Source: Hydrogenimonas sp. SS33
GTDB taxonomy: Bacteria; Campylobacterota; Campylobacteria; Campylobacterales; Hydrogenimonadaceae
DNA: 64,000 nucleotides
Reading direction: 5' to 3'
NCBI RefSeq assembly: GCF_040436365.1
Contig: NZ_AP026369.1
Location: 1,117,501-1,181,500, forward strand
Shown here: piece after piece, positions 6,927-32,659 of the stretch
How the letters are laid out: each line of letters begins with the position of its first letter
Position numbering within the stretch: the first letter of the stretch is position 1
Made by a program: the position numbers and the translations under genes
Notes under the pieces: model-generated
The model's database searches: none
What the model saw: the letters and a program-made list of their open reading frames with translations, nothing else
What the model was told of the DNA's origin: nothing

Positions 6927-7969
6927 AAAAAGTCGAAGCCGTCAAACTACCGCCGGACGCTTCCATCAGGGAGGCATTGCATATCATTGACAGCGGAGCC
7001 ATCAAGCTGGCCATCATAGCCGATGAAGAAAACAGACTGCTCGGAACCGTTACCGACGGCGATATCCGGCGGGCGATTCTGAATGGCAAAACGCTGGATG
7101 AAAGTATCGACGGAGTCTACAACAAACATCCGGTTGTTGTCGGCATAGATGAAAGCAAAGAGTCAATAATCAATCTCTGTACAGCCAAAAAAATATATCA
7201 GATTCCTGTTGTAGACAAACGGGGAAGGATCGTCAGAATTGCCATGCTTGACGAACTTCTCAAACCGAAAACGCGTCCGAACAAGGTAGTGCTGATGGTT
7301 GGAGGCCTGGGAAGCCGGCTTCGCCCCCTGACCGAAACGACACCCAAGCCTATGCTGCACGTAGGGGGCAGACCGATTTTACAGACAATTGTTGAACGCT
7401 TTGCATCTCACGGCTTTACCGACATCATCATGTGTGTGAATTACAAAGCCGACATCATTCGAGACTATTTTGGTGACGGAAACCGGTTTGGAGTCAACAT
7501 TTCATATATCCTTGAACAAAAGAGAATGGGAACCGCCGGGGCACTGAGCCTGCTGAAAGAACGGCCGGGGGAGCCATTTTTCGTGATGAACGGGGACCTT
7601 CTTACAAATGTCAATTTCGAAAATATGCTTCAGTTTCATCTGGACAATAATGCGATGGCCAGTATGTGTGTACGTGAATATGATTTTCAGGTCCCATACG
7701 GCGTTGTCAATATCGAAAACGGTAAAATCAGATCGATCGAAGAAAAGCCTGTACAAAGATTTTTTGTCAGTGCCGGAATCTATATACTCAATCCGGCCTG
7801 CCTGGATCTTATTCCCAATGAATACTACGATATGCCGGCACTTTTCGAAAAGATCATCTCACGGGGAGAGCACGCTGTCTCTTTTCCCTTAAGAGAATAT
7901 TGGCTCGATATCGGACGCATGGAGGAGTACGAAAAAGCCAATCGTGAATATTACAAGGTATTTGAGTGA
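6923..7969 (+). CDS. ptmE: PtmE-like glucosamine-1-phosphate guanylyltransferase with CBS domains
   Basis: 348 residues. A pair of CBS motifs fills residues 1–120 (TVTDGDIRRAIL is typical), and a sugar nucleotidyltransferase domain starts near residue 125 with VVLMVGGLGSRLRPLTE followed by PKPML. In Campylobacter jejuni the CBS–nucleotidyltransferase PtmE makes GDP-glucosamine, the entry point of the GDP-based legionaminic route, so its presence is the main marker for that route. VMNGDLLTN is the metal/sugar-binding stretch and LDIGRMEEYEKAN the usual C-terminal end. GGAG lies about eight bases before the ATG, and the gene overlaps both neighbours. Confidence 0.87.
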   Translation: MKKVEAVKLPPDASIREALHIIDSGAIKLAIIADEENRLLGTVTDGDIRRAILNGKTLDESIDGVYNKHPVVVGIDESKESIINLCTAKKIYQIPVVDKRGRIVRIAMLDELLKPKTRPNKVVLMVGGLGSRLRPLTETTPKPMLHVGGRPILQTIVERFASHGFTDIIMCVNYKADIIRDYFGDGNRFGVNISYILEQKRMGTAGALSLLKERPGEPFFVMNGDLLTNVNFENMLQFHLDNNAMASMCVREYDFQVPYGVVNIENGKIRSIEEKPVQRFFVSAGIYILNPACLDLIPNEYYDMPALFEKIISRGEHAVSFPLREYWLDIGRMEEYEKANREYYKVFE

Positions 7970-8892
7970 AGGCGCTGATCATAGGTCACGGTTCCATCGG
8001 CAGGAGGCACAGGGAGATCCTGAAGAATTTTCAGGAGATAGAAACCGTTGACATCGTGAGCTCCCACATACAAAACTGTGATTGCCGATGTTTTGAAACA
8101 CTCGAAAATACACCTCTTGAAGACTATGACTATTTTGTGATAGCCAACGAAACATCAAAACACTACAATGCGCTAAACTATATTTCAAAACATGTTCGGA
8201 ACCGAAGGATATTGGTAGAAAAACCTCTCTTCAGCCGATATAGAGAAATCGATACGCGAGACAATGATGTTTACGTAGCATACAATCTACGCTTTCACCC
8301 TATCATCGCAGCCATGGAAGCACTTTTAAAAGAAGAAAACATCCTTTATGCCGGGATTATGGCAGGTCAATATCTTCCGACGTGGCGTCCCGGACGGGAC
8401 TACCGCGAAGCCTACAGCGCTTCCGTAGACCAGGGCGGGGGGGTTCTGCGGGACCTGAGTCACGAATTGGACTACACGCTCATGCTCTTTGGTGAGATTA
8501 TTACAATCACGGCTTTCGATGAGAAAGTTTCATCACTCGCAATAGACGCCGACGATCTTTTTACTGCCATAGGAAGGACATCAAAGGGTACCGTGATCAA
8601 CCTGACTCTTGACTATATAAGCAAACATCCCTTGCGCCGCATGATTGTCCATAGCGACCGTCTTACAGTCGAAGCGGATCTTGTCGACTCAACAATGCGG
8701 TTCTGGGATGAAACGGGGAATGGACGTACCGTAAAAGAGCCGATAGAGCGCAACCATACATACCGAAAAATGCATGAAGCTCTTTTGCGGCAAAACGGAA
8801 ATCGTGTCTGCACCCTTTCAGAGGCCCTGACAACCATGAAACTGATTGACCGCACAAGCCACTACAACCGAAAGGATCACAATGTCCGATAA
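7966..8892 (+). CDS. ptmF: PtmF-like Gfo/Idh/MocA-family oxidoreductase
   Basis: 308 residues, starting with GTG at 7966 in GTGA overlap with ptmE. The N-terminal Rossmann loop is GHGSIGRRH and the family signature lysine is in VEKPLF (about residues 84–89), with YNLRFHP and a GGGVLRDLSHELDY helix carrying the catalytic-site histidine. PtmF sits in the precursor branch of the Campylobacter legionaminic pathway, which supplies the glucosamine unit used by PtmE; a Gfo/Idh enzyme paired with the SDR PtmA is consistent with that. Its exact reaction is less certain than that of the Leg enzymes. The last codons overlap the start of the next gene by eleven bases. Confidence 0.8.
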   Translation: MKALIIGHGSIGRRHREILKNFQEIETVDIVSSHIQNCDCRCFETLENTPLEDYDYFVIANETSKHYNALNYISKHVRNRRILVEKPLFSRYREIDTRDNDVYVAYNLRFHPIIAAMEALLKEENILYAGIMAGQYLPTWRPGRDYREAYSASVDQGGGVLRDLSHELDYTLMLFGEIITITAFDEKVSSLAIDADDLFTAIGRTSKGTVINLTLDYISKHPLRRMIVHSDRLTVEADLVDSTMRFWDETGNGRTVKEPIERNHTYRKMHEALLRQNGNRVCTLSEALTTMKLIDRTSHYNRKDHNVR

Positions 8893-9589
8893 ACCGTTAT
8901 GTACCATATGCGCCAGGGGGGGATCCAAGGGCGTCAAAAACAAAAATATCCGCCCGATCGCGGGAAAGCCCATGATAGGCTATACCATTGAACAGGCCAG
9001 ACAGAGCGGACTTTTCGACCATGTGGTCGTCAGTACCGACTCGGATGCTATTGCCGAAACCGCGGAAGAATATGGTGCGGAAGTTTTTTTCCGGCGCTCC
9101 GAGGAGCTCTCTTCAGATACAGCGGGGAAGCTCGATGTCATCAAAGATGCTTTTCTCCGCTCGGAAGAGTATTACGGAACCCGCTTCGAAGCCATTGTGG
9201 ACCTGGATGCGACTTCTCCCCTCAGAGATACAAAAGATATTCTGGAAGCATGGCGCATTTTTACCGAAGGAGATTTCGAAAACCTTATTACCGCCATGCC
9301 TTCGCGAAGAAGTCCCTATTTCAACCTGATTGAAGTAACACCGGACGGAAATGTAACACTTTCGAAAAAACTTGAAAAGCAGATAGTCAGACGTCAGGAT
9401 GCTCCGAAAACCTACGATATGAACGCTTCCATCTACATCTGGAAACGTCGTGCACTTTTGCAGAACGACTCCCTTTTTTTACCAAAAACCGGACTCTACG
9501 TGATGCCCGAAGAACGTTCTATAGATATCGATTCGGAACTGGATTTTGAGTTCGTCGAATTTTTAATGAGGAAAAAAAATGCTCGATAG
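8882..9589 (+). CDS. legF: CMP-legionaminic acid synthetase (LegF/PtmB)
   Basis: 235 residues from the ATG at 8882, chosen because it gives the family N-terminus SDKPLCTICARGGSKGVKNK and sits behind GAAAGGA inside the end of ptmF; an ATG at 8846 is too far upstream. The enzyme activates legionaminic acid with CTP for use by a glycosyltransferase. ARGGSKGVKNKN is the CTP-binding loop of NeuA/PtmB cytidylyltransferases; VVSTDSDAIAETAEEYGAEV and LDATSPLRDTKDI are further conserved blocks, and the D-x-D near the end (IDIDSELDFE) is the metal site. It overlaps ptmA by eleven bases. Confidence 0.87.
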   Translation: MSDKPLCTICARGGSKGVKNKNIRPIAGKPMIGYTIEQARQSGLFDHVVVSTDSDAIAETAEEYGAEVFFRRSEELSSDTAGKLDVIKDAFLRSEEYYGTRFEAIVDLDATSPLRDTKDILEAWRIFTEGDFENLITAMPSRRSPYFNLIEVTPDGNVTLSKKLEKQIVRRQDAPKTYDMNASIYIWKRRALLQNDSLFLPKTGLYVMPEERSIDIDSELDFEFVEFLMRKKNAR

Positions 9590-10355
9590 CAAAGTTGTGG
9601 TCATAACCGGCGGTGCCGGCCTAATCGGAAAAGAATTCGCCCGGGCAGTAACCGGGAGCGGAGGCGTAGCAGTCATCGCCGATATCGACAAAGCCGCTGC
9701 CGAAAATGCACGGAAAGAGATAATGGAAAATCTTTCCGACATCAAAGGGGACGTTGCAGCCGTCGAACTTGACATTACCTCCGAAGCCTCCCTGCAAAAC
9801 TGTATCGAAGAACTGGATCGTCGTTACGGCCATATCGATGGACTCGTCAACAATGCCTATCCTCGCAACAAAAACTACGGCAACCATTTCTTCGACGTAA
9901 AATATGAAGATTTCGTGGAAAATGTAGGGCTTAACCTGGGAGGCTACTTCCTTACATCCCAGCAATTCGCTTTGTATTTCAAAAAACAGGGGTACGGCAA
10001 TATCGTGAACATTTCATCCATCTACGGAGTGATCGCGCCCAAATTCGACATTTATCATGGCACCTCCATGACGGTACCCGTAGAATACGCCGCTATCAAA
10101 TCGGCACTCATACACCTGACCAGGTATATGGCCAAATATTTCAAAGGTGAAAACATACGTGTCAACGCTATCAGCCCCGGTGGAATATTGGACAACCAAC
10201 CACGGCCTTTTCTGGATGCTTATGCAAAAGAGTGTATGACCAAAGGCATGCTGGACAAAAGCGACCTCAACGGCACGCTTCTTTTTCTTCTCAGTGACAT
10301 GAGCCGTCATATCACGGGGCAGAATATCATAGTAGATGACGGGTTTACTTTATGA
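9579..10355 (+). CDS. ptmA: PtmA-like short-chain dehydrogenase
   Basis: 258 residues, classical SDR. The cofactor loop VITGGAGLIGKEFARAV is at residues 7–23, NNAYPRNK replaces the usual NNAG, and the active site has SSIYG followed by YAAIK (Y-x-x-x-K). ISPGGI and a C-terminal GQNIIVDDGFTL complete the fold. It belongs to the PtmA group found with flagellin-glycan and legionaminic genes, where with PtmF it is placed in the amino-sugar precursor branch. The ATG lies inside the end of legF. The stop overlaps the following acetyltransferase start in ATGA. It closes the recognisable legionaminic block. Confidence 0.83.
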   Translation: MLDSKVVVITGGAGLIGKEFARAVTGSGGVAVIADIDKAAAENARKEIMENLSDIKGDVAAVELDITSEASLQNCIEELDRRYGHIDGLVNNAYPRNKNYGNHFFDVKYEDFVENVGLNLGGYFLTSQQFALYFKKQGYGNIVNISSIYGVIAPKFDIYHGTSMTVPVEYAAIKSALIHLTRYMAKYFKGENIRVNAISPGGILDNQPRPFLDAYAKECMTKGMLDKSDLNGTLLFLLSDMSRHITGQNIIVDDGFTL

Positions 10356-10909
10356 TTGATACAATAAAATCCTTTTTTTCGAAATGGTCTTTCGATATCA
10401 GGGCTGACCGCATTGGCCCCGACTGCCCTTTTACACACTGGTATCTCCATTTCAAACCGCGAATGAAAAAACTTTGCAAAAAAAAATTTAAATATTTCGC
10501 CGATAGTGCGGAGTTCAGAGCAGGTGCATACGCGATTACCTGTTCCAAAATTTCCATTGGAGAAAATGTCGTCATAAGGCCCCAAACGATGTTATTCGCA
10601 GACCCGAGAAGTGACCAGGAAGGTTATATCATAATTGAAAAAGATGTTTTGATCGGATCCGGTGTTCATATATATGTTGCCAATCATAAATTCGGCGAGC
10701 AAAAAAATATCATTGAGCAAGGCCACCAGAGAGCAAAAAACGTTATTTTGAAAGAAGGTAGCTGGATTGGAGCGAATGCAATCATACTTCCGGGAGTTAC
10801 CATCGGGAAAAACGCGGTCATAGGTGCGGGAAGTATCGTTACAAAAAGCATACCGGACGGAGAAGTTTGGGCGGGCAATCCGGCAAGAATGATAAAAAAC
10901 AAATCCTGA
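10352..10909 (+). CDS. Hexapeptide-repeat acetyltransferase (WbbJ/maltose-acetyltransferase type)
   Basis: 185 residues. Left-handed beta-helix repeats fill the C-terminal two thirds (ISIGENVVIRPQTMLF, IIIEKDVLIGSGVHIYVANH, IILPGVTIGKNAVIGAGSIV), ending in the family's GNPARMI motif. VANHKFG supplies the catalytic histidine position. An N-terminal basic stretch (about residues 30–50) may be peripheral. The likely role is O- or N-acetylation of a sugar in this locus; the tight coupling to ptmA (ATGA) suggests the legionaminic residue itself or its neighbour, which is inference. The gene is AT-richer than the legionaminic block and introduces the less typical segment that follows. Confidence 0.72.
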   Translation: MIDTIKSFFSKWSFDIRADRIGPDCPFTHWYLHFKPRMKKLCKKKFKYFADSAEFRAGAYAITCSKISIGENVVIRPQTMLFADPRSDQEGYIIIEKDVLIGSGVHIYVANHKFGEQKNIIEQGHQRAKNVILKEGSWIGANAIILPGVTIGKNAVIGAGSIVTKSIPDGEVWAGNPARMIKNKS

Positions 10910-19121: not shown

Positions 19122-19861
19122 AACCGAAACGAATAATGAAACACCTCATGCTGGGTGCGGGAAGGCTGCTGTACGGCAACAGCGGGTGCAGGGTCATCTA
19201 CTACCATGACATCCACTCCAAACGTTCCTTCACCGGAATGTCCACTCCTCTGGCACTCTTCAGGCGACATCTGGAGATCATCCGGGAAGAGGCTTTCCGT
19301 CCGGTCCCTTCGCCGGGAGAAGGGAGCAGGGAAGTGGAAATCACTTTCGATGACGGCTTCCGGGGAATATATGAAAATTTTTCGATTCTGGAAGAGTACG
19401 GCATTCCGGTACGCATCTTTCTTGTAAGTGATTTCATCGGCAAAGAAAACTATCTTGCCGAAAAAGAGATTTCGGAACTCTTGGAAACGGGCCTGGTGCA
19501 GATCGGTTCCCACACGGTTTCCCACAGGAACCTCGATACAATGGAAGAGCGCGAAGCCGCGAAGGAAATCTGCGACTCCAAAAAGAGGCTGGAAGAGCTT
19601 TTCGGCGTACCGGTCGACACCCTTTGCTACCCCCGCGGAAAATTCAATGACTCGACGATCCGAATCGCAAAAGAGTGCGGATATTCGCTCCAGTATTCAT
19701 GTCTTCCGGGAAGCTGCACCGACCCCTTCAAGCCGGGCATGGTCAACCGTTCACTGGTTCAAAATGCCGACGATTTCGAATTCCGATCCATTCTTTACGG
19801 AGCTGACAGAATTTTTTATCGGCGATACCTCAGCCAACAGTACAGAAGGAGTACGCCTTGA
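19118..19861 (+). CDS. Polysaccharide deacetylase family protein (NodB domain)
   Basis: 247 residues. NodB-homology motifs are in order: YYHDIHSKR near residue 28, ITFDDGFRGIYEN near 72–84 (motif 1, catalytic Asp pair), QIGSHTVSHRNL near 127–138 (motif 2, metal histidines H-x-x-x-H), and LCYPRGKFND near 168–177 (motif 3). It should remove N- or O-acetyl groups from a sugar. No signal peptide is obvious; the N-terminus is short and basic, so it may act on lipid-linked intermediates in the cytoplasm. The stop TGA overlaps the TTG start of the GT2 gene. Confidence 0.82.
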   Translation: MKPKRIMKHLMLGAGRLLYGNSGCRVIYYHDIHSKRSFTGMSTPLALFRRHLEIIREEAFRPVPSPGEGSREVEITFDDGFRGIYENFSILEEYGIPVRIFLVSDFIGKENYLAEKEISELLETGLVQIGSHTVSHRNLDTMEEREAAKEICDSKKRLEELFGVPVDTLCYPRGKFNDSTIRIAKECGYSLQYSCLPGSCTDPFKPGMVNRSLVQNADDFEFRSILYGADRIFYRRYLSQQYRRSTP

Positions 19862-20706
19862 CGGATCTTACCGTTGTCATACTGACACTCAACGAAGAAG
19901 AGAACATCCGATATTCCGTCGGCAATGTGATAGGCTGGGCGAAAAGCGTCTATGTACTCGACAGCGGTTCCACTGACAAAACGGTGGAGATCGCGGAAGA
20001 GATGGGGGCCAGGGTCTTTTACAGAAAATTCGACACCTATGCCAGACAGAGAAACCATGCGATCAAAGAGCTTCCCGTTGATACGGAATGGATGATGTTC
20101 CTCGATGCGGACGAATACCTGACGGAACCTCTTAAAGCCGAGATCGAAGCCATCCTCCCGCAGACCGACAAAGACGGCTTTTTCATGAAGAGACGCTTCT
20201 ACTTCATGGGACGCTGGATCCGACACGGAGGCTATTATCCCGTCAAACTTCTCAGACTCTTCAAAAGGAAGAAAGCACATGTCGAACGCGATATCAATGA
20301 ACATGTGGTCGTTGAGGGAAAGCTGGGAGAATTGCAACACGATTTTGTGGATGAAAATCACAAAAGCATTCACGACTGGATCGAAAAACACAACCGCTAT
20401 TCCGATTTTGAGGCGTTGGAACTTTTGCGCCATGAAGAGCGAATGAAAGAAGGGCAATCCGACGAATATGCCAGACTTTTCGGGACTCCTCCCCAGAGGA
20501 AACGATGGATCCGGGAACATCTGTGGAACCGTTTTATGCCGCCCCTGGTCAAACCCTGGTTCTACTTTTTTTACAGATATATCGTCAAACTCGGTTTCCT
20601 CGACGGCAAAGAGGGGTATATGTTTTTCATGATGCACGCTTTTGTGATGGTACTGCCAACCAGTGTCAAATACTATGAACTCAAAAGAAGAGAAGAGAAA
20701 AAATGA
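19858..20706 (+). CDS. Glycosyltransferase family 2, WaaE/KdtX-like (copy 1)
   Basis: 282 residues, starting with TTG at 19858 in overlap with the deacetylase stop. GT-A fold: LTVVILTLNEEENI at the N-terminus, VYVLDSGSTDKT near residues 32–43, and MMFLDADEYL near 79–88 with the DxD metal site. A FYFMGRWIRHGGYYPVKLLR stretch near 115–134 and the WIEKHNRYSDFEALEL helix are typical of the WaaE/KdtX core-heptosyl or glucosyl transferase group. Its C-terminus has two aromatic amphipathic helices for membrane contact. A 168-base tract (19951–20118) is nearly identical to the paralogue at 22994. Confidence 0.83.
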   Translation: MTDLTVVILTLNEEENIRYSVGNVIGWAKSVYVLDSGSTDKTVEIAEEMGARVFYRKFDTYARQRNHAIKELPVDTEWMMFLDADEYLTEPLKAEIEAILPQTDKDGFFMKRRFYFMGRWIRHGGYYPVKLLRLFKRKKAHVERDINEHVVVEGKLGELQHDFVDENHKSIHDWIEKHNRYSDFEALELLRHEERMKEGQSDEYARLFGTPPQRKRWIREHLWNRFMPPLVKPWFYFFYRYIVKLGFLDGKEGYMFFMMHAFVMVLPTSVKYYELKRREEKK

Positions 20707-21882: not shown

Positions 21883-23001
21883 ATGAAATATTTGATTCAC
21901 GCCGTCTCCACCAACATGGGAGGAGCGAAAAGGCACCTTGACAGCATGATGGCGGAACTCTCCGAAAGTGCTCCCGAAGATGAATTTTTCGTCGTTCTCA
22001 ACGAACGATACCATGCGGAGTGGGACCGGCCCAATATCCGTATTATCAGATACCCCATAAAATACAGCAACGGCCTGAGGCGTCTTTGGTTCGACAATGT
22101 GGAGATCAACCGGCTGATCAAAGAATTCGATATCGATCTGCTTCTCTCCTTTGCCAATTTCGGCCCTTTCAAAGCAAAATGCAGACACCTGCTTTTTGAA
22201 ACCAACGCACTCTACTTCTGTGACAATATACGTCATCTCTACCCCCTGAAATCCAGGGTTGTTTCGGACCTGCGAAAACAGCTTATCAAACTTTCCGGCA
22301 CGGGTGCGGACCTGATTCTGACTCCGAGCGAAAGTCTGAAAAACCAGCTCATTGACGCCTTTGGATTCGATGAAAAAAAGATAACGGTTCTTCCCCACGC
22401 CATGGACAGAAAAAGTCTGGGAGCACCCAATGCAGAGGAAAAAAAGAGTGGCGATACCGTCCGTTTCATCGTCACTTCCCATTTGACCAGACACAAAAGA
22501 GTCGAAACAATGCTCAAAGCACTGGTTTTACTGAAAGAAGATGAAGCGATCGGCTGCCCTTTCCATGTGCGCTGCACATTCGACAGGCGCGACAATGCAG
22601 CCTATTACGACGAGTTGAAGGCGTATATCGACAAGCATAAACTGAATGATCTTGTGTCGTTCATAGGCAGGGTGGATCAGGCGGAGATGGGAAACCTCTA
22701 TGCTTCCGCCGACTGCATGCTGCACACCACGGCATGTGAATCTTTCGGATTCGCTCTGCTTGAAGCCAAACTCTTCAGACTCCCCGCCATCTGCTCCGAT
22801 ATAGCGGTCAACCGCGAAATAGCGAAAAATTCCGCACTCTATTTCAGGACGGACGATCCTGCGGACCTGGCGGAAAAGATGAAACAGTTCATTCTTGAAA
22901 GGCCGGAAAACTTCGATTTCGACGACGGCCTCGTCAATTGGAACTGGAAAAGATATTCCGATCGTTTGCTTCAAATTGCGGGAAGGATGATGCATGGTTG
23001 A
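21883..23001 (+). CDS. Glycosyltransferase family 4
   Basis: 372 residues. The N-terminus MKYLIHAVSTNMGGAKRHLD is the classic GT4 acceptor-domain opening with a GG loop. The donor domain shows FIVTSHLTRHKRVETMLKAL near residues 196–215, VSFIGRVDQAEMGNLYASAD, and CESFGFALLEAKLFRLPAIC near 286–305 with the E-x7-E pair. It likely transfers one neutral or amino sugar; no donor is assigned. It opens the unit that runs to 32659 and its last codons overlap the second GT2 copy by eight bases. Confidence 0.83.
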   Translation: MKYLIHAVSTNMGGAKRHLDSMMAELSESAPEDEFFVVLNERYHAEWDRPNIRIIRYPIKYSNGLRRLWFDNVEINRLIKEFDIDLLLSFANFGPFKAKCRHLLFETNALYFCDNIRHLYPLKSRVVSDLRKQLIKLSGTGADLILTPSESLKNQLIDAFGFDEKKITVLPHAMDRKSLGAPNAEEKKSGDTVRFIVTSHLTRHKRVETMLKALVLLKEDEAIGCPFHVRCTFDRRDNAAYYDELKAYIDKHKLNDLVSFIGRVDQAEMGNLYASADCMLHTTACESFGFALLEAKLFRLPAICSDIAVNREIAKNSALYFRTDDPADLAEKMKQFILERPENFDFDDGLVNWNWKRYSDRLLQIAGRMMHG

Positions 23002-23875
23002 CCTGACAGTCGTCATTTTGACACTCAACGAAGAGAAAAATCTTCCTTTTGCCCTCGAAAACGTCATCGGATGGGCAAAAAACGTTTATGTACTCGACAG
23101 CGGTTCCACCGACAAAACGGTGGAGATCGCGGAAGAGATGGGGGCCAGGGTCTTTTACAGAAAATTCGACACCTATGCCAGACAGAGAAACTACGCGATC
23201 AAAGAGCTTCCCATTGATACGGAATGGATGATGTTCCTCGATGCGGACGAATACATTCTTCCCGAACTCAAACAGGAGATCGCCGAGAAACTGGCGGAGC
23301 ATCCGAAAGAAAACGGTTTCTATCTACGGAGACGTTTCTATTTTATGGGGAGATGGATTCGCCACGGAGGGTACTACCCGGTCAAACTGCTTCGTCTTTT
23401 CAGGAGAGAAAAAGCCGAAGTGGTCAGAGACATCAACGAGCAGATCGTTGTGGAAGGGGAGACGGCGACGCTGCGACACGATTTTGCGGACGAAAACCGC
23501 AAAGGGATCTATGACTGGATAGAAAAGCACAACCGATATTCCTCTTTTGAGGCACAGGAGCTTTTAAATTACGACAAACGTCGATCGGAACGGGAAAAAG
23601 ACGACTATGCGAAACTGTTCGGTACACAACCCCAGAGAAAAAGATGGATCAAGGAAAATATTCGCAACAGATTCGTCCCCCCGCTGGCCAGGCCTTTTGT
23701 CTATTTTTCCTATCGCTACTTTCTGAAACTGGGCTTTCTTGACGGAAAAGAGGGTTTCATCTACTTTATGATGCATGCCTTCATCATGGGTTTGGCGACC
23801 AACGTCAAATACCTCGAACTCAAAAGAGAGGAAGAGGCGTCTCAAAGCAGAAAACCGCAGGACACAATGCAATGA
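22994..23875 (+). CDS. Glycosyltransferase family 2, WaaE/KdtX-like (copy 2)
   Basis: 293 residues, paralogue of the 19858 gene with collinear GT-A motifs (LTVVILTLNEEKNL, VYVLDSGSTDKT, MMFLDADEYI, FYFMGRWIRHGGYYPVKLLR). Similarity continues along the whole length, but bases 23087–23254 differ from 19951–20118 at only four of 168 positions while the flanks are clearly diverged. The C-terminus carries about ten extra polar residues (SQSRKPQDTMQ). The two copies probably add sugars to related acceptors. The ATG start lies within the end of the preceding GT4 gene. Confidence 0.83.
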   Translation: MVDLTVVILTLNEEKNLPFALENVIGWAKNVYVLDSGSTDKTVEIAEEMGARVFYRKFDTYARQRNYAIKELPIDTEWMMFLDADEYILPELKQEIAEKLAEHPKENGFYLRRRFYFMGRWIRHGGYYPVKLLRLFRREKAEVVRDINEQIVVEGETATLRHDFADENRKGIYDWIEKHNRYSSFEAQELLNYDKRRSEREKDDYAKLFGTQPQRKRWIKENIRNRFVPPLARPFVYFSYRYFLKLGFLDGKEGFIYFMMHAFIMGLATNVKYLELKREEEASQSRKPQDTMQ

Positions 23876-24957
23876 TAAAAAGAGTTTTGGACAAATACCT
23901 GAAAACGGTTTGGAAGGATCCGGAAAGAAAACCTTTCGGGCAGATCGTCGGTGAAGCGGTCCGTTTTTCTGTTCGGAAAAAGACGCTTCCTACCGCCTAT
24001 TTCACACGACTCCTCTATAAAAAACGGAACACCCGCTACCTGGACTATACCTCAAACCCGACCGTAACCTTTTTGCAGAAGCATTACAACGACCCATCCT
24101 TCGTTCCGGTTCTGGAAAACAAATATCTCTATCATCTCTTTTTCAAAGAGCAGGGGATTACGATCCCAAACAGTATCGCCTACAACATCGGCAATATCTT
24201 CTTTGTCGGTTCAGAAAGGCTGATCGTCGAGGATACGGAGATGTTCCGCAAGCTGCTCTACCGTATCATCGGCCGCTGCAAAAAGAACAATGTCCTTTTC
24301 ATGAAAGAGGTGGCCGGAGCCTGGGGAAAAGGCGCCCACAAAATCTCGGCGGACGATCTGGAAAAGAAAAATTTCGATACCGAATCGCTTTTCCGGGATA
24401 TCGTATCGGCCAGCTTCATCATACAGGAAGCGATTGTACAGCACGAGGAGATAAACAGACTCTATCCCCTCAGCATCAATTCGATCCGGATGGATACTTT
24501 CATGGACCGGGAGGGGAATGTCGAAATTCTCTCTGCTCTGCTCAGAATGGGTGGTAACGGCAATTTCGTCGACAACGTCACCGCCGGCGGTCTTTTTGTC
24601 CCTATTGACCTGGAGAGCGGAAAGCTCGGTAAACGGGCACAGACTTTTCTCAAAAACGGTGCGAAAAGCCATGAAGCCCACCCCTATACCGGCACCCCTT
24701 TCGAAGGCTTTGCGGTCCCCTTTTTCGATGAGGCGAAACAGCTCGTGAAAAAGGCGGCCGAAAAAATACCTGCTCTGCGTCTGGTCGGATGGGATGTGGT
24801 TATCACCCCCGAAGGGCCGCTGCTTCTGGAGGGGAACCATCTCTACCATATCGGCATGTCGGAAATGGCGTACGGAGGATATCTGAAACATCCTGTTTTC
24901 CGAAAAGCATTGCACGAAGCAGGTTTGAGCGCTGACGAGGAAAAGAAAGAAAAATGA
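23872..24957 (+). CDS. Sugar-transfer-associated ATP-grasp protein
   Basis: 361 residues, resembling the ATP-grasp family found in polysaccharide loci (ATPgrasp_ST). ATP-grasp enzymes join a carboxylate to an amine or thiol through an acyl-phosphate. The N-terminal quarter is basic and family-specific (YLDYTSNPTVTFLQKHY near residue 55; LENKYLYHLFFKEQGI near 80). The ATP-grasp core includes LFMKEVAGAWGKGAHKIS near 143–160, FIIQEAIVQHEEINRLYP, INSIRMDTFMD, and the metal-binding end DVVITPEGPLLLEGNH near 305–320 with the catalytic E/N pair. It begins the module with two PaaK-like ligases. Coupled to both neighbours by ATGA. Confidence 0.75.
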   Translation: MIKRVLDKYLKTVWKDPERKPFGQIVGEAVRFSVRKKTLPTAYFTRLLYKKRNTRYLDYTSNPTVTFLQKHYNDPSFVPVLENKYLYHLFFKEQGITIPNSIAYNIGNIFFVGSERLIVEDTEMFRKLLYRIIGRCKKNNVLFMKEVAGAWGKGAHKISADDLEKKNFDTESLFRDIVSASFIIQEAIVQHEEINRLYPLSINSIRMDTFMDREGNVEILSALLRMGGNGNFVDNVTAGGLFVPIDLESGKLGKRAQTFLKNGAKSHEAHPYTGTPFEGFAVPFFDEAKQLVKKAAEKIPALRLVGWDVVITPEGPLLLEGNHLYHIGMSEMAYGGYLKHPVFRKALHEAGLSADEEKKEK

Positions 24958-26333
24958 GCCTACAGGAAAAAATCTACTCCCGTTTACCCGTATTCCTGCA
25001 AAACATCGCCTGCTCGATGAAGGGAAGAGAGATCGCTTCACGACGCTATTCCAGGGAGTTTTTCGATCTTTTCGAAAAGATAAGGGACCGGGACCGCCTG
25101 CCGGCGGATGAGATGTCCGAACTCAGATTCCGGCGACTGCGCGACAATCTGATAACCGCCTATGAAACTTCCGAATATTACAGGGATCTTTTCGACCGTC
25201 ATGCTTTCGACCCCTACCGCATGGAAGATCCGGACGAACTTCTCAGGCTCCCTCTTCACAGAAAAGCAGATATCAAAAACAATCTGCACAGCATGGTCAA
25301 CCGTACCGTGGAAAAGGGTTCGACGATCAAAGCGACAACGAGCGGAACCACCGGTTCCGGCCTTGTCTTTCCCATGAGCCACGCCTGTGAACGTGAGACC
25401 TGGGCCGTATGGTGGCGCTACCGGCACAACCACGGTATCTCTTTTGATACATGGTGCGCCATTTTCGGGGCAAGGAGCATTGTCCCTCTGGACCAGCAGA
25501 CCCCTCCGTTTTACAGAACCATCTCCCCGATGCGGCAGGTTCTTTTCAGTATGCATCACCTGAACCGTCGCAACATCGCTTCCTATGTGGAAGCGTTCAA
25601 CAAAATGCAGATCCCCTGGATTCACGGTCACCCCTCTACCATAGCCAACATGGCCTCTTTGATGCATGAAAACGATTTGCGGCTGAACTACCCGGTGAAA
25701 TATATCACCATCGGTTCCGAGAATCTTCTGGAACACCAGATCGAAATCATCGAAAACGTTTTCGGCATCACGCCGATCCAGCATTACGGATTGACCGAAC
25801 CCGTCGCCAACATTTCAATGTGCGAGCACGGCAAACTCCATATCGACGAGGATTACTCCTTCGTTGAACTTGTTCCGACCGAAGAGGATGACAACAGATA
25901 CCACCTCATTGGCACCTCCTTCAGCAACGACGCACTTTTTTTCCTTCGTTATGACACGAACGACATCGTTACGCTCGAGGAGGATCAATCCTGCCCCTGC
26001 GGACGTTCCGGACGTATCATAAAAAGTATCGAAGGGCGCAAAGATGACTATATCGTTATGAGGGACGGAACCAGAATCGGACGGCTGAGCACCATTTTCC
26101 GCCGGTTGACCCATGTGAAAGAGGCCCAGATCCGTCAGGAAGCCGACGGGCATGTTATTTTTTTCGTGGTCAAATCGGCAAAATATACCGATGAAGACGA
26201 AACGGTTTTGAAAGAGGAGATCGAATCCCGCCTGGATGTCGACTACTCCATCAAATATGTGGATACAATTCCAAAGACCAAGGGTGGAAAATTGAAATTT
26301 GTTATTTCTAACTATGAAGGAAACAGAAAATGA
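24954..26333 (+). CDS. PaaK/CapK-like adenylate-forming ligase (module copy A)
   Basis: 459 residues. The P-loop TTSGTTGSG at residues 128–136 is canonical for adenylate-forming enzymes, HYGLTEPVANIS near 281 corresponds to the A5 adenine-binding motif, and PCGRSGRIIKSIEGRKDD is the hinge typical of the PaaK/CapK branch. IPKTKGGKLKFVI near the end carries the C-terminal catalytic lysine region. The enzyme should make an acyl-AMP from an unknown carboxylate. Alignment with the 28471 protein is gap-free over at least the first 140 residues, so the two are close paralogues flanking the bi-domain oxidoreductase. Four-base overlaps on both sides. Confidence 0.8.
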   Translation: MSLQEKIYSRLPVFLQNIACSMKGREIASRRYSREFFDLFEKIRDRDRLPADEMSELRFRRLRDNLITAYETSEYYRDLFDRHAFDPYRMEDPDELLRLPLHRKADIKNNLHSMVNRTVEKGSTIKATTSGTTGSGLVFPMSHACERETWAVWWRYRHNHGISFDTWCAIFGARSIVPLDQQTPPFYRTISPMRQVLFSMHHLNRRNIASYVEAFNKMQIPWIHGHPSTIANMASLMHENDLRLNYPVKYITIGSENLLEHQIEIIENVFGITPIQHYGLTEPVANISMCEHGKLHIDEDYSFVELVPTEEDDNRYHLIGTSFSNDALFFLRYDTNDIVTLEEDQSCPCGRSGRIIKSIEGRKDDYIVMRDGTRIGRLSTIFRRLTHVKEAQIRQEADGHVIFFVVKSAKYTDEDETVLKEEIESRLDVDYSIKYVDTIPKTKGGKLKFVISNYEGNRK

Positions 26334-28471
26334 AACAACTGATACAAAGCTACAAAACCGGTGAACTCGGTCTTTTCGACGTACCCGTACCTGTGTGCGA
26401 CGACCACGGCATACTGGTCAAAACCACCGCATCCCTGGTTTCGGCGGGCACGGAGAAGATGATCGTCGATATCGCCAAAAAATCGCTGCTGGGAAAAGCG
26501 AAAGCCCGGCCGGACCTGGTTAAACAGGTGGTGGACAAGATGAAAAAAGAGGGGGTCAAAAACACGCTTGAGAAGGTGTTCAGCAAACTCGACACCCCCA
26601 TTCCCCTCGGCTACAGCTGTGCCGGACGGGTTCTTGAGGTGGGTCGCCTTGTGGAGGGTGTCAGCGTGGGAGAGCGCGTGGCGTGCGGCGGTGCGGGTTA
26701 CGCCAACCACAGTGAAGTGAACTACATTCCCAAAAACCTCTTCGTCAAGATTCCCGAGAATGTGGACGATGTGGATGCCTCTTTCGTCACCGTCGGCGCC
26801 ATTGCACTGCAGGGGGTCCGCCAGACCGCCCCCACACTCGGCGAAAATATCGCGGTCATGGGCCTCGGCCTCCTCGGCCAGCTGACGGTACAGCTACTCA
26901 AAGCCAACGGATGCCGCGTCATCGGCAGCGACATCGACCCCGACAAGATGGAGCTGGCCAAAAAGCTCGGTGCGGACGAGACGTGCCATGCCGGCGATCT
27001 CGTCAAGAAAGCGATGGAATTCAGCAACGGGTACGGGGTCGATGCGGTCATCATTACCGCTTCCACGGCCAGCAACCAACCCATCATCGATGCGGGCGAC
27101 ATCTCCAGAATGCGCGGCAGAGTGGTTGTGGTCGGCATGGTCGGCATGGACATTCCCCGCAACGAGTACTACAAAAAGGAGCTCACGCTGAAGCTCTCCA
27201 TGGCCTACGGGCCCGGCCGCTACGATCCCGAATACGAAGAGAAAGGGATCGACTACCCCTACGATCTGGTACGATGGACCGAACAGCGCAATTTCGAAGC
27301 CTTTTTGAATCTCATTGCCGAAGGGAAGATCACCCCCAAAGATCTCATTACCCACCGGTTCGATTTCGACGATGCCATGAAAGCCTACGACCTGCTGGAA
27401 GGGAAGGTTCAGGAGAAGTACCTGGGTATCGTCCTTACCTATACCCGCGATATCGACCTGGAGAAGAACAAAATCGTTCAGATCAGCGCCAAACCGGTCA
27501 CTGCGGACCACATCAACGTCGGACTCGTGGGGGCGGGGAACTTCACGAAATCGGTCATTCTCCCCAACCTCAAGAAAGTGGGCGGATACGACCTCGTGGG
27601 GCTCTGCACCGCAACCGGCGTCAGTGCCCACGGAACCGGCGAGAAACACGGCTTCAAATATATCACGACCAACGAGGAGGAGATCTTCCGGAATGACGAA
27701 ATCAATGCCGTTTTCGTCACCACCAGGCATGACAGGCATGCCGGCAGCGTCCTCAGGGCGATCGAATCGAAAAAACACTGTTTCGTCGAAAAGCCCCTTT
27801 GCATCAAAGAGGAGGAGCTGGAGGCCATAGCGGCGGCTTACGACGGTAGCACCATCGTGCAGGTCGGCTTCAACCGCCGCTTTTCACCGCTGATCCGTAA
27901 GATGAAAGAGAAGGTCGGCGATGCGCCGATGTCCCTGATGTACCGCGTCAACGCCGGTATCATCCCCAGGGAGGTATGGATTCAGGATCCGGAAGTGGGC
28001 GGCGGAAGGATCGTCGGGGAAGTGTGCCACTTCATAGACACCTGCAGCTACCTCATCGGCAGCGAAGTGGCGAAAGTCTATGCGGCCTGCATCCACAAAA
28101 ACGACAAATCGATTCCCGACGAAGACAATGTCAGCATCGTCCTGAGCTATGAAAACGGATCGACGGCGACAATCAATTACTACGCCTACGGGGACGCAGG
28201 CATGCCCAAAGAGTACCTGGAACTTTTCGCCAACGGCATATCGATGCAGATGAATGACTTCAGGGAACTGGCCGTTTATGCCAAAGGGCACAGAGAAAAG
28301 AGCAAAAACGCCAATCAGGACAAAGGATTCGTCGACGAATTCAAAGCATTCCGGGAGGCGGTGAAAACGGGGCGTCCGGCCATTGCCTTCGACAGCATCT
28401 ACAACACGACGAAGACGACATTCAAAATTCTCGAATCACTGAAATCCGGCAAGACCGTAGAGATCCGCTGA
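26330..28471 (+). CDS. Bi-domain oxidoreductase: MDR (Zn-alcohol-dehydrogenase-like) fused to Gfo/Idh/MocA
   Basis: 713 residues with two dehydrogenase domains. The first (about 1–370) is a medium-chain dehydrogenase/reductase: CAGRVLEVGRLVEGVSVGERV, then the Rossmann loop VMGLGLLGQLTVQLL near 174–188. The second (about 392–713) is Gfo/Idh/MocA: VGLVGAGNFTKS near 394–405 and VEKPLCIKEEE near 485 with the family lysine, then GEVCHFIDTCSYL with its active-site histidine. This fusion recurs in exopolysaccharide loci, usually next to a heparinase-like gene, as here. Sugar oxidation/epimerisation through a keto intermediate is the likely chemistry; substrate unknown. It lies between the two PaaK-like paralogues with 4- and 1-base overlaps. 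The gene is GC-richer than its left-hand neighbours. Confidence 0.85.
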   Translation: MKQLIQSYKTGELGLFDVPVPVCDDHGILVKTTASLVSAGTEKMIVDIAKKSLLGKAKARPDLVKQVVDKMKKEGVKNTLEKVFSKLDTPIPLGYSCAGRVLEVGRLVEGVSVGERVACGGAGYANHSEVNYIPKNLFVKIPENVDDVDASFVTVGAIALQGVRQTAPTLGENIAVMGLGLLGQLTVQLLKANGCRVIGSDIDPDKMELAKKLGADETCHAGDLVKKAMEFSNGYGVDAVIITASTASNQPIIDAGDISRMRGRVVVVGMVGMDIPRNEYYKKELTLKLSMAYGPGRYDPEYEEKGIDYPYDLVRWTEQRNFEAFLNLIAEGKITPKDLITHRFDFDDAMKAYDLLEGKVQEKYLGIVLTYTRDIDLEKNKIVQISAKPVTADHINVGLVGAGNFTKSVILPNLKKVGGYDLVGLCTATGVSAHGTGEKHGFKYITTNEEEIFRNDEINAVFVTTRHDRHAGSVLRAIESKKHCFVEKPLCIKEEELEAIAAAYDGSTIVQVGFNRRFSPLIRKMKEKVGDAPMSLMYRVNAGIIPREVWIQDPEVGGGRIVGEVCHFIDTCSYLIGSEVAKVYAACIHKNDKSIPDEDNVSIVLSYENGSTATINYYAYGDAGMPKEYLELFANGISMQMNDFRELAVYAKGHREKSKNANQDKGFVDEFKAFREAVKTGRPAIAFDSIYNTTKTTFKILESLKSGKTVEIR

Positions 28472-29841
28472 TGAGCCTTTCCGAACTTCTCTACGAACTC
28501 TCTCCGGTTTTTATGCAGAATTTTTTCTGCTCTCTGGAGGGAGCCAAAATCTATCGGCGAAGATTCGGAGAAAACTTTTTTGCCGTTTTCGACGAGATAA
28601 AAGATCGGGACAGGTTGCCACGCGAAGAGATGGAAAAGCTCAAAACGGCAAGAATGCGCACACAGCTGGTTGCGGCATACGAAAACAGCGAATATTACAA
28701 AAATCTGTTCGACCGTCACGCCTTCGACCCCTACAAATTCGAAGATTTCGAGACGCTTCAATCCCTCCCCCTTCTGAAAAAGGAGGCGCTGCAGGAGAAT
28801 CTGCTCGCTTTTTTGAACAGGCATGTCTCTCCGGCTTCCTATATTACACTCCATACCAGCGGAACGACCGGCGCCGGCCTCGTCTTTCCCGAAAGCAAAC
28901 GGTGTGAAAACGAAAAATGGGCCGTCTGGTGGCGCTACAGGACCAACCTGGGCATCTCTCTTGACACATGGTGCGCCAATTTCGGAGGCAAGGTCATCGT
29001 CCCCGTCAAACAGAGCAAGCCTCCCTACCACCGTATCATAAAACCTTTCAGGCAGGTGAGCTTCAGTATGTACCATCTCGGGCCGGATACGGTGGGAGAG
29101 TATGTCAAAGTGATCAACCGGAAAAGACTTCACTGGATTCACGGATTCCCCTCGACACTGAGCTATCTGGCATCACTGATGCAGGAGAAAAATCTTGTGT
29201 TTGACCACCCCATCCGGTGGGTGACTATAGGTGCCGAGTCGCTCCTGCCCCACCAGAAAAAGATCATTAGAGAGGTTTTCGGGACCGATCCAAGGCAGCA
29301 TTACGGACTCTCCGAGCCTGTCGCCAACATATCCGAATGCGAACACGGCTCCCTCCATGTGGACGAGGATTTCGCCCACGTCGAATTCCTTCCCCTGGAG
29401 AACGAATCGGGACGCTACCAGATCGTCGGTTCCTCTTTTGCCAACGACGCACTTCTCTTTCTGCGTTACTGTACCAACGACATCGTCACGCTTCCCGACA
29501 AACCGGAACAATGTCCGTGCGGGCGCATCGGAAGGGTCGTCAGGGACATCGAGGGGAGAAAGTACGACTACATCGTTCAGAAAGACGGCTCGAAGATCAT
29601 GATTCTGGGCCATATTTTCCGGGACATGGTCAATATCAGGGAGGTTCAGGTAAAACAGGAGAAAAGCGGTTTTGTGACATTCTTTGTCGTGCCTTCCGAA
29701 AGATATACGGAAGAGGACGAAGCGCTGCTCCGGCATGAAATAGAGATGCGTTTCAGAATCGATTATGCTATCGAATATGTCGACAAAATAGAAAAAACGG
29801 AGCGGGGAAAGCTCAGACTCGTCATTTCGGAACTTGCATGA
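28471..29841 (+). CDS. PaaK/CapK-like adenylate-forming ligase (module copy B)
   Basis: 456 residues, paralogue of the 24954 protein. The P-loop is HTSGTTGAG at 128–136, HYGLSEPVANIS the A5-like motif, PCGRIGRVVRDIEGRKYD the family hinge, and EKTERGKLRLVIS the C-terminal end. The N-terminal 120 residues, outside the canonical A-domain, share RDRLPxxEM and LFDRHAFDPY blocks with copy A, so both likely bind a similar partner or acceptor. Substrate-facing residues differ (for example MSHACERET versus ESKRCENEK after the P-loop), so they may activate different acids. One-base overlap (TGATG) upstream and ATGA downstream. Confidence 0.8.
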   Translation: MSLSELLYELSPVFMQNFFCSLEGAKIYRRRFGENFFAVFDEIKDRDRLPREEMEKLKTARMRTQLVAAYENSEYYKNLFDRHAFDPYKFEDFETLQSLPLLKKEALQENLLAFLNRHVSPASYITLHTSGTTGAGLVFPESKRCENEKWAVWWRYRTNLGISLDTWCANFGGKVIVPVKQSKPPYHRIIKPFRQVSFSMYHLGPDTVGEYVKVINRKRLHWIHGFPSTLSYLASLMQEKNLVFDHPIRWVTIGAESLLPHQKKIIREVFGTDPRQHYGLSEPVANISECEHGSLHVDEDFAHVEFLPLENESGRYQIVGSSFANDALLFLRYCTNDIVTLPDKPEQCPCGRIGRVVRDIEGRKYDYIVQKDGSKIMILGHIFRDMVNIREVQVKQEKSGFVTFFVVPSERYTEEDEALLRHEIEMRFRIDYAIEYVDKIEKTERGKLRLVISELA

Positions 29842-31418
29842 AACGCCTTGAAAAGATGCTACTGCTGATCAATACCCTCCGCTATCTGAAAGCGAAACAG
29901 ATCTACTACAGAGCCTACTACACACTCAGAAAAAAGATCTGCAAAATGGCAGGCGTCATTCCCTCTCTCGCCGTGAAAGCGGAGGGAAAGCCGCCAAATT
30001 TAACCGAAGGCATATCTCCACCCGCTTCATTCCGTAACGGCACATTCACTTTTTTGAATCTTTCAAGAAATTTTGAAAACGGGATCGACTGGAACTTTCC
30101 GGATTACGGCAAACTCTGGACCTACAATCTCACCTATTTCGATTTTCTGATGCAGGAGGGCCTGGATAGAGAAAGCGGTTTGGCGCTGATGGATGATTTT
30201 ATAAATAAAATGCCGAAAATCAGGGACGGCCTCGAACCTTTCCCCATTTCGCTGCGGGGCATCAACTGGATCAAATTTATCAGCAGACACGGCATCCGCA
30301 GCGAAAAGATCGACGCTTCTTTGCGGGCGCAGTACGCCATTTTGGAGAAGAATTTGGAGTATCACCTGCTGGGAAACCATCTTCTGGAAAACGGATTCTC
30401 TCTTCTCTTCGGAGGCTGCTATTTCGATGACAAAACCCTTCTGAGAAAAGCAAACAAGATTCTTTCCGAGCAACTCGAAGAGCAGATACTCGAAGACGGC
30501 GCCCACTTCGAACTGAGCCCCATGTACCACCAAATCATGCTCTACCGCATACTCGACTGCATCAATCTTCTGACTCACAACGATTGCGACAGGGAGAATC
30601 TTCTGCCTCTGTTGCGCAACAAGGCATCCCTTATGCTCGGCTGGCTTCAGAACATAACCTTTTCCGACGGTTCCGTCCCGCTGATGAACGACAGCGCCGA
30701 GGGCATCGCTCCCGAAAGTGAAGCCCTCTTCGCCTATGCCCGCAGACTGGGCGTCCAACCCCGCTGCCTCCCTCTCGGCGATTCCGGCTACCGCACTCTG
30801 AAAAACCGCCGATACGAAGCGGTGGTAGATGTGGGAAGGATCGGTCCGGACTACATTCCCGGCCACGCCCATGCCGACACTTTCTCCTTTGAGCTCCATG
30901 CGGGAGGGAAACCGCTGGTCGTCGACACGGGAACTTCCACCTACGAAACCGGCGGAAGGCGCACGCTGGAACGGGGAACCGCCGCGCACAATACCGTAGA
31001 AGTCAACAGATGCGACCAGAGCGAAGTCTGGGGCGGATTCCGGGTCGCCCGCCGCGCCGGCGTGCACGGCCTGAAAGAGGAAAACGGCTGCATCGAAGCG
31101 TGGCATGACGGGTATCTGAAAAAATTCGGCGCCAGACACAAACGGGCATTCATCGGCCAAAAAGAGAGGTTCACCGTCGTCGACACCGTGGAGGGGCCAT
31201 CAGGTCTGCGATGTGTCGCCAGGCTCCATCTTCATCCGGACACTGCCGTACACCTGGAGGGCGGTACGGTCATGTGCGGCGAAAGCGTCATCCGTTTCAA
31301 GGGAGGCTCTCCGACGCTTGCCTCCTACGAGTATGCCCCGGCATTCAACAGCCGCCGCGAAGGGATCGTGATAGAAGTGCCCTTCGAAAAATACCTGAAA
31401 ACAGAGATCATTCCATGA
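29838..31418 (+). CDS. Heparinase II/III-like protein
   Basis: 526 residues: an alpha/alpha-barrel N-terminal domain and a C-terminal heparinase II/III beta-domain. Seen are LINTLRYLKAKQIYYRAYY at the N-terminus (a recurrent opening in EPS-locus members), HLLGNHLLENGFSLLFGG, EDGAHFELSPMYHQ near 219–232, PGHAHADTFSFELHAGG near 339–355 and AAHNTVEVN near 382, which hold the tyrosine/histidine catalytic set of this lyase fold. No signal peptide is visible, unlike secreted polysaccharide lyases, which argues for work on a cytoplasmic or membrane-facing intermediate. Known members cleave or epimerise uronate-containing chains; here the role is open. ATGA overlaps on both sides. Confidence 0.78.
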   Translation: MKRLEKMLLLINTLRYLKAKQIYYRAYYTLRKKICKMAGVIPSLAVKAEGKPPNLTEGISPPASFRNGTFTFLNLSRNFENGIDWNFPDYGKLWTYNLTYFDFLMQEGLDRESGLALMDDFINKMPKIRDGLEPFPISLRGINWIKFISRHGIRSEKIDASLRAQYAILEKNLEYHLLGNHLLENGFSLLFGGCYFDDKTLLRKANKILSEQLEEQILEDGAHFELSPMYHQIMLYRILDCINLLTHNDCDRENLLPLLRNKASLMLGWLQNITFSDGSVPLMNDSAEGIAPESEALFAYARRLGVQPRCLPLGDSGYRTLKNRRYEAVVDVGRIGPDYIPGHAHADTFSFELHAGGKPLVVDTGTSTYETGGRRTLERGTAAHNTVEVNRCDQSEVWGGFRVARRAGVHGLKEENGCIEAWHDGYLKKFGARHKRAFIGQKERFTVVDTVEGPSGLRCVARLHLHPDTAVHLEGGTVMCGESVIRFKGGSPTLASYEYAPAFNSRREGIVIEVPFEKYLKTEIIP

Positions 31419-32659
31419 AAAACGAGCAACCCGTACGAATCCTTTTCATCACGGACAACTTTCCGCCGGAAGTCAATGCTCCGGCGACCCGCACCTATGA
31501 ACACTGCAAGGAGTGGGCCAAGAAGGGTGCCGAAATCACGGTTATCACCTGCGCACCCAACTTTCCCCACGGAAAGGTCTACAAAGGCTACAAAAACAGT
31601 CTCTACCGGGTGGAGGAGACGGAAGGCATCCGTGTCATCCGTGTCTGGAGCTATATTACCGCGAACAAAGGCTTCGCCAAGCGGGTTCTGGACTATATCA
31701 GTTTCGCCCACTCCGCCTTCTGGGCAGGGCTCTTTCAAAAAACCGACATCATTGTCGCCACTTCCCCCCAGTTTTTTACCACATGGGCGGCCTGGGGGCT
31801 TTCCAAAATCAAAAGAAAGCCCTGGATTTTCGAATTGCGTGACCTCTGGCCGGAATCGATCAAAACGGTAGGCGCCATGAAGCAGGGAGCCGCCATCGAA
31901 CTTCTCGAAAAAATAGAACTTGGGCTCTACCGAAGCTGTGACCGTGTCGTGGCGGTGACGGAAGCATTCAGAAAAAACCTCATCTCCCGCGGCATACCTG
32001 CCGACAAGATCGACGTGGTGACCAACGGCTCCAATATGGAACTCTTCCATCCCAGAGAGCCCAACAGGGAGCTTTTGCGGCAACTAGGACTGGAAGGGAA
32101 ATTCGTAGTCGGCTACATCGGCACCCACGGCATGGCACACAGTCTCGATTTTGTCGTGAAGTCTCTCAAAACCGTAGAGGAGGACCCCGATATCCACTTC
32201 CTCTTCATCGGTGACGGGGCCATGAAAGAGAGCGTTGTCGAACAGGCCCGGAAACTGGACCTGAGAAACGTCACTTTTTTAAACCCTGTTTCAAAAGAGG
32301 AAGTTCCTCGCTATCTCTCCATCGTCGACCTCTCCCTGGCTCCGCTGAAAAAATCGGACACCTTCAAAACCGTCATCCCTTCCAAAATTTTCGAAGCCTC
32401 GGCCATGAGAAAACCGACACTGCTCGGGGTCGAGGGGCAGGCGAGGGAAATCCTCGAAAAATACGGGGCCGGGCTCGCTTTCGAACCGGAAAACAGAGAA
32501 GATTTCATCGACAAGCTCTACCGTCTCAAAAATGACAAGGCACTCTACAAAAAAGCGCAGGAGGGGTGCGAAGAGCTCGCCCGCGATTTCGACAGAAAAA
32601 GGCTCGCGATGAAGATGTTTGAAATCTTAAAAGATACCGTCAATTCCCGGACTTCTTGA
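31415..32659 (+). CDS. Glycosyltransferase family 4, WbuB/WcaI-like
   Basis: 414 residues from the ATG at 31415 (ATGA overlap). The acceptor half begins ILFITDNFPPEVNAPATRTY and contains CAPNFPHGKVYKGYKN and WIFELRDLWPESIKTVGAM, a combination typical of WbuB/WcaI-type transferases for N-acetylated deoxyhexoses. The donor half has VVTNGSNMELFHP, FVVGYIGTHGMAHSLDFVV, FLFIGDGAMKESV, and VIPSKIFEASAMRKPTLLGV with the ExxA donor-binding helix. This is the last gene of the sugar operon; the stop is followed by a 58-base spacer before the phosphatase. No terminator hairpin is evident. Confidence 0.83.
   Translation: MKNEQPVRILFITDNFPPEVNAPATRTYEHCKEWAKKGAEITVITCAPNFPHGKVYKGYKNSLYRVEETEGIRVIRVWSYITANKGFAKRVLDYISFAHSAFWAGLFQKTDIIVATSPQFFTTWAAWGLSKIKRKPWIFELRDLWPESIKTVGAMKQGAAIELLEKIELGLYRSCDRVVAVTEAFRKNLISRGIPADKIDVVTNGSNMELFHPREPNRELLRQLGLEGKFVVGYIGTHGMAHSLDFVVKSLKTVEEDPDIHFLFIGDGAMKESVVEQARKLDLRNVTFLNPVSKEEVPRYLSIVDLSLAPLKKSDTFKTVIPSKIFEASAMRKPTLLGVEGQAREILEKYGAGLAFEPENREDFIDKLYRLKNDKALYKKAQEGCEELARDFDRKRLAMKMFEILKDTVNSRTS

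Follow-up and report, generated by a model that had tools for sequence, protein, structure and literature searches.

Gene organization of the locus

The window, that is, the whole stretch of 64,000 nucleotides analysed here, belongs to a 2.25 Mb genome of the Campylobacterota, whose nearest named homologues are found in Hydrogenimonas and other Campylobacterales. According to the list of open reading frames and the Pfam profiles, five + strand genes occupy positions 23872-31418 (Table 1), in the order given by the earlier note on this DNA. The junctions in the chain are ATGA (4 bp overlap), except for one TGATG (1 bp). The GT2 gene before the ATP-grasp gene and the GT4 gene after the heparinase-like gene are chained by similar overlaps. 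As the chain of overlaps runs from GT2 to GT4, the operon spans at least 22994-32659.

Table 1. Genes of the operon, with positions in the window
Gene product	Position	Strand	Basis and remarks
GT2 glycosyltransferase	22994..23875	+	PF00535; overlaps the ATP-grasp gene; bounds the replaced segment on the left
ATP-grasp ligase, sugar-transfer-associated, 361 aa	23872..24957	+	PF14397; window-specific, variable part
PaaK1, PaaK-like adenylate-forming enzyme, 459 aa	24954..26333	+	Motifs, match to PaaK in the PDB, clade
BiDom, fused MDR and Gfo/Idh oxidoreductase, 713 aa	26330..28471	+	Pfam, conservation; conserved core
PaaK2, paralogue of PaaK1, 456 aa	28471..29841	+	Between BiDom and the heparinase-like gene
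Heparinase II/III-fold protein, predicted cytoplasmic, 526 aa	29838..31418	+	PF07940/PF16889, fold; conserved core
WcaI/WbuB-type GT4 glycosyltransferase	31415..32659	+	PRK10307, 163 bits; 4-bp overlap; third core member in many loci

The operon is surrounded by a polysaccharide locus with nonulosonate genes, glycosyltransferases, Wzx, Wzy and a deacetylase. A phosphatase, a chain-length/tyrosine kinase and an export protein were also read off the translations. The locus also has acyltransferase genes, such as one of the hexapeptide type (10352-10909) and one of the Acyl_transf_3 family directly left of the window. The search for viral carriers found none.

BiDom oxidoreductase

BiDom carries the ADH_zinc_N and GFO_IDH_MocA domains of Pfam in a single protein, and both dinucleotide sites are conserved in 67 loci. 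In the same loci, the Gfo/Idh half retains the features of its family (G401/G403, E487-K488-P489, H567 and D570), with Lys488, His567 and Asp570 as the catalytic residues. The conserved residues of the MDR half are S38, G40, T41, G94 and Y95. BiDom does not have the pattern of a zinc-dependent MDR enzyme. As SAGTE and GYS stand at the positions of the zinc ligands (Cys and the His of GHE), the MDR half is likely zinc-free, which we presume from general knowledge of the MDR family. The AlphaFold model has a pLDDT of 92.1. Among its best 50 fold matches in the PDB, each covers one half and no two-domain solved structure was found; the matches to the Gfo/Idh half include NAD-dependent glycosidases, levoglucosan dehydrogenase and glucose-fructose oxidoreductase.

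Carriers of BiDom were detected in 4 of 200 genomes of Campylobacterota (the present one included), 20 of 385 of Alphaproteobacteria and 31 of 369 of Gammaproteobacteria. Thus, the protein occurs in about 5-8% of the sampled Alpha- and Gammaproteobacteria; it is also found in Bacteroidota and Actinomycetota, and is annotated by fold only. The distribution is sporadic.

Recurrent unit around BiDom

We gathered 69 BiDom loci, and 56 of them, the present locus not being counted, extend at least 2.5 kb on each side. A heparinase-like gene is present in 43 of the 56, and in 34 of these it lies within 300 bp of BiDom on the same strand. As controls, 16 PaaK-anchored polysaccharide loci without BiDom were used, and only one has a heparinase-like gene (Fisher p=4e-7); this value is only a guide, because every control locus is Gammaproteobacterial and the sequences used are related to one another. 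In 22 of 42 loci, the gene directly after the heparinase-like one encodes a WcaI-type GT4 (at least 40% identity). Within 2.5 kb of BiDom, AsnB was detected in 21 of the 56 loci and PaaK in four. ATPgrasp_ST was detected in none of the 56 loci. The recurrent unit is BiDom with the heparinase-like protein, often joined by the GT4, and PaaK or AsnB is the variable partner. It is highly probable that BiDom works together with the heparinase-like protein as a functional pair.

The earlier note had drawn the five families as a single module. According to the co-occurrence count, the five-gene set was rejected as a recurring unit, the ATP-grasp gene being missing in 56/56; on the criterion for refutation that the note itself had set, a lack of recurrent co-occurrence, the module fails for the ATP-grasp gene. 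AsnB and PaaK were never found together near BiDom in the 56 loci, where about 1.5 such cases are expected; the difference is not significant. A strict mutual exclusion of the two was also rejected, as both coexist in loci without BiDom.

Heparinase-like protein

The heparinase-like protein belongs to the heparinase II/III superfamily according to its Pfam domains (Hepar_II_III_C, PF07940, 168.4 bits; Hepar_II_III_N, PF16889, 50.1 bits) and its fold. It scores only 40.2 bits against the HepC equivalog NF045573 (cut-off 700), and is at most about 18% identical to solved structures. A Foldseek search with the AlphaFold model (pLDDT 94.3) gave heparinase III (E=4e-21) and, lower down, human dermatan sulfate epimerase 1 (DS-epi1; E=7e-13). 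Against a viral fold library, the model gave few matches, to insect-virus proteins with low TM-scores. Residues N180, H181, Y230, Y369 and H384 are invariant in 37 of 37 BiDom-linked homologues, and H343 and H345 are kept in 34 of 37. Thus, the His and Tyr residues expected of a uronate lyase or C5-epimerase are present, their equivalence to those of solved enzymes being by sequence motif only.

Hydropathy gives no sign of a signal peptide in this protein, as the earlier note had remarked, or in 36 homologues. One homologue, from locus L131, is a doubtful case because of its hydrophobic N-terminus.

Among solved structures, the closest ones are lyases, which counts against an epimerase. A true C5-epimerase, DS-epi1, also has the heparinase fold; the paper on it describes a His/double-Tyr mechanism and a similarity to heparinase II, and suggests that small changes in the active site can convert a lyase to an epimerase (PMC8006597). 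The present protein shares with DS-epi1 and the heparinase II/III lyases the alpha-toroid and beta-sandwich fold and the conserved His/Tyr residues for uronate C5 chemistry. In contrast to the present protein, which is predicted to be cytoplasmic, those enzymes act on polymers outside the cytoplasm. Fold and residues agree with a lyase and an epimerase alike, and of the two a C5-epimerase is taken here as the more probable.

PaaK pair and its clade

PaaK1 and PaaK2, whose genes flank BiDom, are 55% identical, and the TSGTTG phosphate-binding loop is kept in both, which confirms the pair of paralogues that the earlier note had recognized. Both are under the Pfam cut-off for AMP-binding, and their scores against the PaaK equivalog TIGR02155 are 75.2 and 54.6 bits (cut-off 646), so they are PaaK-like only. 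The loop and further motifs place them in the adenylate-forming superfamily. PaaK1 has TSGTTG, HYGLTE and GRKDD, and matches PaaK structures in the PDB with E=2e-15. Relatives of PaaK2 at 65-75% are present in two other loci (L011 and L019), likewise between BiDom and the heparinase-like gene.

One clade, with a support of 99/96 and recovered in 100% of the bootstrap trees, unites PaaK1 and PaaK2 with five relatives. Two of the relatives are from other Campylobacterales, one is from Sphingobium and two are from Gammaproteobacteria, so that three bacterial classes are covered. All seven members adjoin a BiDom. These BiDoms are not sisters but are scattered on the BiDom tree; the five that can be placed give 5 label changes for 5 rows, at least 3 of which are forced. 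A single co-inherited PaaK-BiDom block was rejected, as the two trees disagree. The scattered BiDoms beside a single PaaK clade indicate that this PaaK type was joined to different BiDoms more than once. Such repeated joining, as read from the trees, is what a functional link would predict. The farthest member, in locus L183, carries less weight because its branch is long and the BiDom beside it is incomplete, lying at the end of a contig. In searches with PaaK1 that took no account of BiDom, the two top relatives in Gammaproteobacteria and the top one on plasmids all proved to adjoin a BiDom.

ATP-grasp gene and its replacement in the closest relative

The ATP-grasp protein scores 178.9 bits against ATPgrasp_ST (PF14397; cut-off 31.4), and a metal-ligand motif, D...LLEGN, is read at its C-terminus. 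No match was found in the PDB by sequence. The closest relative, locus L008 of the same genus (BiDom 88%), has the order GT2-AsnB-BiDom-heparinase-like-GT4. Its GT2 is the homologue of the GT2 in the window and lies directly upstream of AsnB. An AsnB-type amidotransferase thus occupies the slot held in the window by the ATP-grasp and PaaK1 genes, and PaaK2 is missing. No PaaK match was found in the L008 genome at E<=1e-15. This AsnB has the Ntn cysteine (MCGI) and the PPi loop (SGGID), corresponding to the WbpS-like motifs MCG and SGG.D. It scores 423 bits against TIGR01536 (cut-off 267), and 465 bits against TIGR03108, below the cut-off of 817. AsnB is also present in that slot in a Hydrogenimonas bin (L012).

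AsnB-type WbpS makes a uronamide in Porphyromonas (PMC7468200). In the psc1 cluster of Rubrivivax gelatinosus, syntenic in Thauera MZ1T, CapK (PaaK-like by name) and the AsnB-type WbpS share one locus, and capK and wbpS insertions were recovered in a biofilm screen; a heparinase-like gene and a bi-domain oxidoreductase go unmentioned in the passages considered here (PMC3684757). In view of the uronamide made by WbpS, the capK and wbpS insertions and the replacement in L008, the ATP-grasp enzyme, PaaK1 and PaaK2 presumably have a related task on a carboxylate of this pathway, giving a substituted amide or ester.

Link to UDP-ManNAcA genes

WecB (509 bits, cut-off 210) and WecC (546 bits, cut-off 459) are encoded in the same genome at C1:1114173-1116613, at a distance of 0.9 to 3.3 kb from the left end of the window; both exceed the equivalog cut-offs, which assigns UDP-ManNAcA synthesis to this genome. 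A wecB or wecC homologue is present in 25 of the 56 BiDom loci. Among 83 Gammaproteobacterial genomes, the WecC search gave six carriers, and four of them are among the eight BiDom carriers (p=5e-4). Annotated plasmids show the same link: wecB-wecC-(unknown)-PaaK-BiDom-heparinase-GT4 in Sphingobium, BiDom-heparinase-wecC-wecB in Parabacteroides and wecC-BiDom-asnB in Streptomyces. As BiDom loci often carry wecB/wecC and the present genome has both, the sugar acid UDP-ManNAcA is the likely raw material. The substrate is probably a hexosaminuronic acid.

Proposed pathway and alternatives

We interpret the genes as a uronic-acid tailoring operon in a Wzx/Wzy-type surface polysaccharide locus, and give this whole picture a probability of about 0.45. 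WecB and WecC would supply UDP-ManNAcA. BiDom may alter the ring stereochemistry or the oxidation state via a keto intermediate, one half oxidizing and the other reducing. The signal-less heparinase-fold protein, judged by its fold and residues, would take away the proton at C5 of the uronate. Most likely it would serve as a C5-epimerase for a nucleotide sugar or a lipid-linked unit at the cytoplasmic face, and the GT4 would use the product. PaaK1, PaaK2 and the ATP-grasp enzyme would activate carboxylates and so produce an amide or ester with an acyl or aminoacyl link, where the AsnB-type amidotransferase of the relatives would be expected to yield a plain uronamide. The wecB/wecC link, the replacement of PaaK by AsnB and the uronate-specific fold suggest that the carboxyl of the sugar is one substrate. 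Several observations count against this reading. Only a small minority of loci have a PaaK close to BiDom, AsnB and PaaK adjoin in some loci lacking BiDom, AsnB is widespread in polysaccharide loci generally, and in 31 of the 56 loci no wecB/wecC homologue was seen within the stretch examined.

In the PaaK family, acyl-CoA is formed from an added acid. This known chemistry, together with the acyltransferase genes of the locus, would suit an arrangement in which the PaaKs and the ATP-grasp enzyme activate a hydroxy, fatty or amino acid, and an acyltransferase puts it on an amino sugar. The uronate carboxyl would then be uninvolved, and BiDom and the heparinase-like protein would act separately on the uronic acid. 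Such an arrangement is somewhat unlikely, since the PaaK clade tracks BiDom and a carboxyl-amidating type of enzyme holds the PaaK slot in the nearest relative; the carboxyl activated is more probably, though by no means certainly, the uronate's own. The heparinase-like protein could also be a lyase that trims, recycles or length-limits the polymer, with BiDom handling the freed sugars. The fold matches to heparinase III lyases and the retained catalytic residues agree with this, but the 37 homologues have no apparent signal peptide, so that contact with an exported polymer is unlikely, and the gene belongs to one chain with biosynthetic genes and that of a glycosyltransferase. We regard the lyase as improbable.

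Polysaccharide islands shuffle genes, and the five genes may merely have met here. This would fit the ATP-grasp gene, missing from all the other BiDom loci, and the rarity of BiDom in the Campylobacterota. Nevertheless, it is very improbable for the set, and the strong association of BiDom with the heparinase-like gene and the result for the PaaK clade largely refute it for all the genes but the ATP-grasp one. A sugar acid modified by redox steps, together with enzymes that activate carboxylates, is close to the proposal of the earlier note and is the best fit to a BiDom accompanied by a heparinase-fold protein, UDP-ManNAcA genes, an AMP-forming carboxylate enzyme (AsnB or PaaK) and a PaaK pair from a BiDom-linked clade. 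That note is thus partly supported: its direction, an oxidized sugar and an activated acid, was good, and its unit was drawn wrongly.

Relation to known systems

The Wbp/Vim pathway of Porphyromonas and Pseudomonas resembles the tailoring operon proposed here in that it makes a hexosaminuronic acid, has WbpB among its enzymes and uses the carboxyl-activating, AsnB-type WbpS to turn the acid into the amide (PMC7468200). In contrast, as described there it has no bi-domain oxidoreductase or heparinase-fold protein, and the amide is made by AsnB, not by PaaK or ATP-grasp enzymes. Literature searches on the bi-domain-containing oxidoreductase with heparinase, on ATP-grasp/PaaK/heparinase, on CapK with a taurine capsule and on the BiDom/heparinase-like/PaaK cassette found nothing, and one on AglU archaeal threonine attachment gave nothing usable. 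Each family is known; with most subscription journals outside the search, the combination and its consistent occurrence in several phyla appear to be undescribed. It is a speculative and rather doubtful extension that the cassette is an undescribed, widespread route to a C5-epimerised, carboxyl-substituted hexosaminuronic acid, in which a cytoplasmic heparinase-fold C5-epimerase works with a two-domain oxidoreductase and PaaK-type adenylating enzymes replace amidotransferases, placing a larger group on the uronate carboxyl.

Once BiDom is tied to UDP-ManNAcA and to a partner of heparinase fold, two families that were anonymous become a pathway that can be tested, and the PaaK clade is a specific target for assays. 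Should the heparinase-fold protein prove to be an epimerase of biosynthesis, bacteria would have a counterpart of the dermatan sulfate epimerase of animals. As a minor observation, many homologues of the heparinase-fold protein share a basic amphipathic start, NTVKYLKxxQIxYR.

Features outside the central gene set
Feature	Coordinates	Strand	Evidence
Third PaaK-like protein, 464 aa, highly divergent	window 194-1588	-	profile match; weak NF045666 match
GT2 genes	window 19858-20706; 22994-23875		
Nonulosonic-acid-type genes	window 1876-10355; L047 7435-12933		

In the surveyed loci L117, L132, L146 and L088, the gene for a diverged WecB-like epimerase (29-33% against WecB) is located immediately 3' of the fused oxidoreductase gene, and the heparinase-like gene follows wherever the contig is long enough. 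The surveyed contig L014, binned as Methylococcaceae, carries oxidoreductase, heparinase-like and GT4 genes with 51-75% identity to the window counterparts. Its oxidoreductase is nested within those of Campylobacterota, and either transfer or mis-binning would account for this.

The P-loop of the third PaaK-like protein is altered to TGGSLS, and the wecB, wecC and acyltransferase genes adjoin its gene. The two GT2 glycosyltransferases show 72% identity and are likely the product of a duplication; PGA_cap and GT4 genes are enclosed between them. Two distinct nonulosonic-acid-type pathways are present in one locus, with two NeuB homologues and two cytidylyltransferases.
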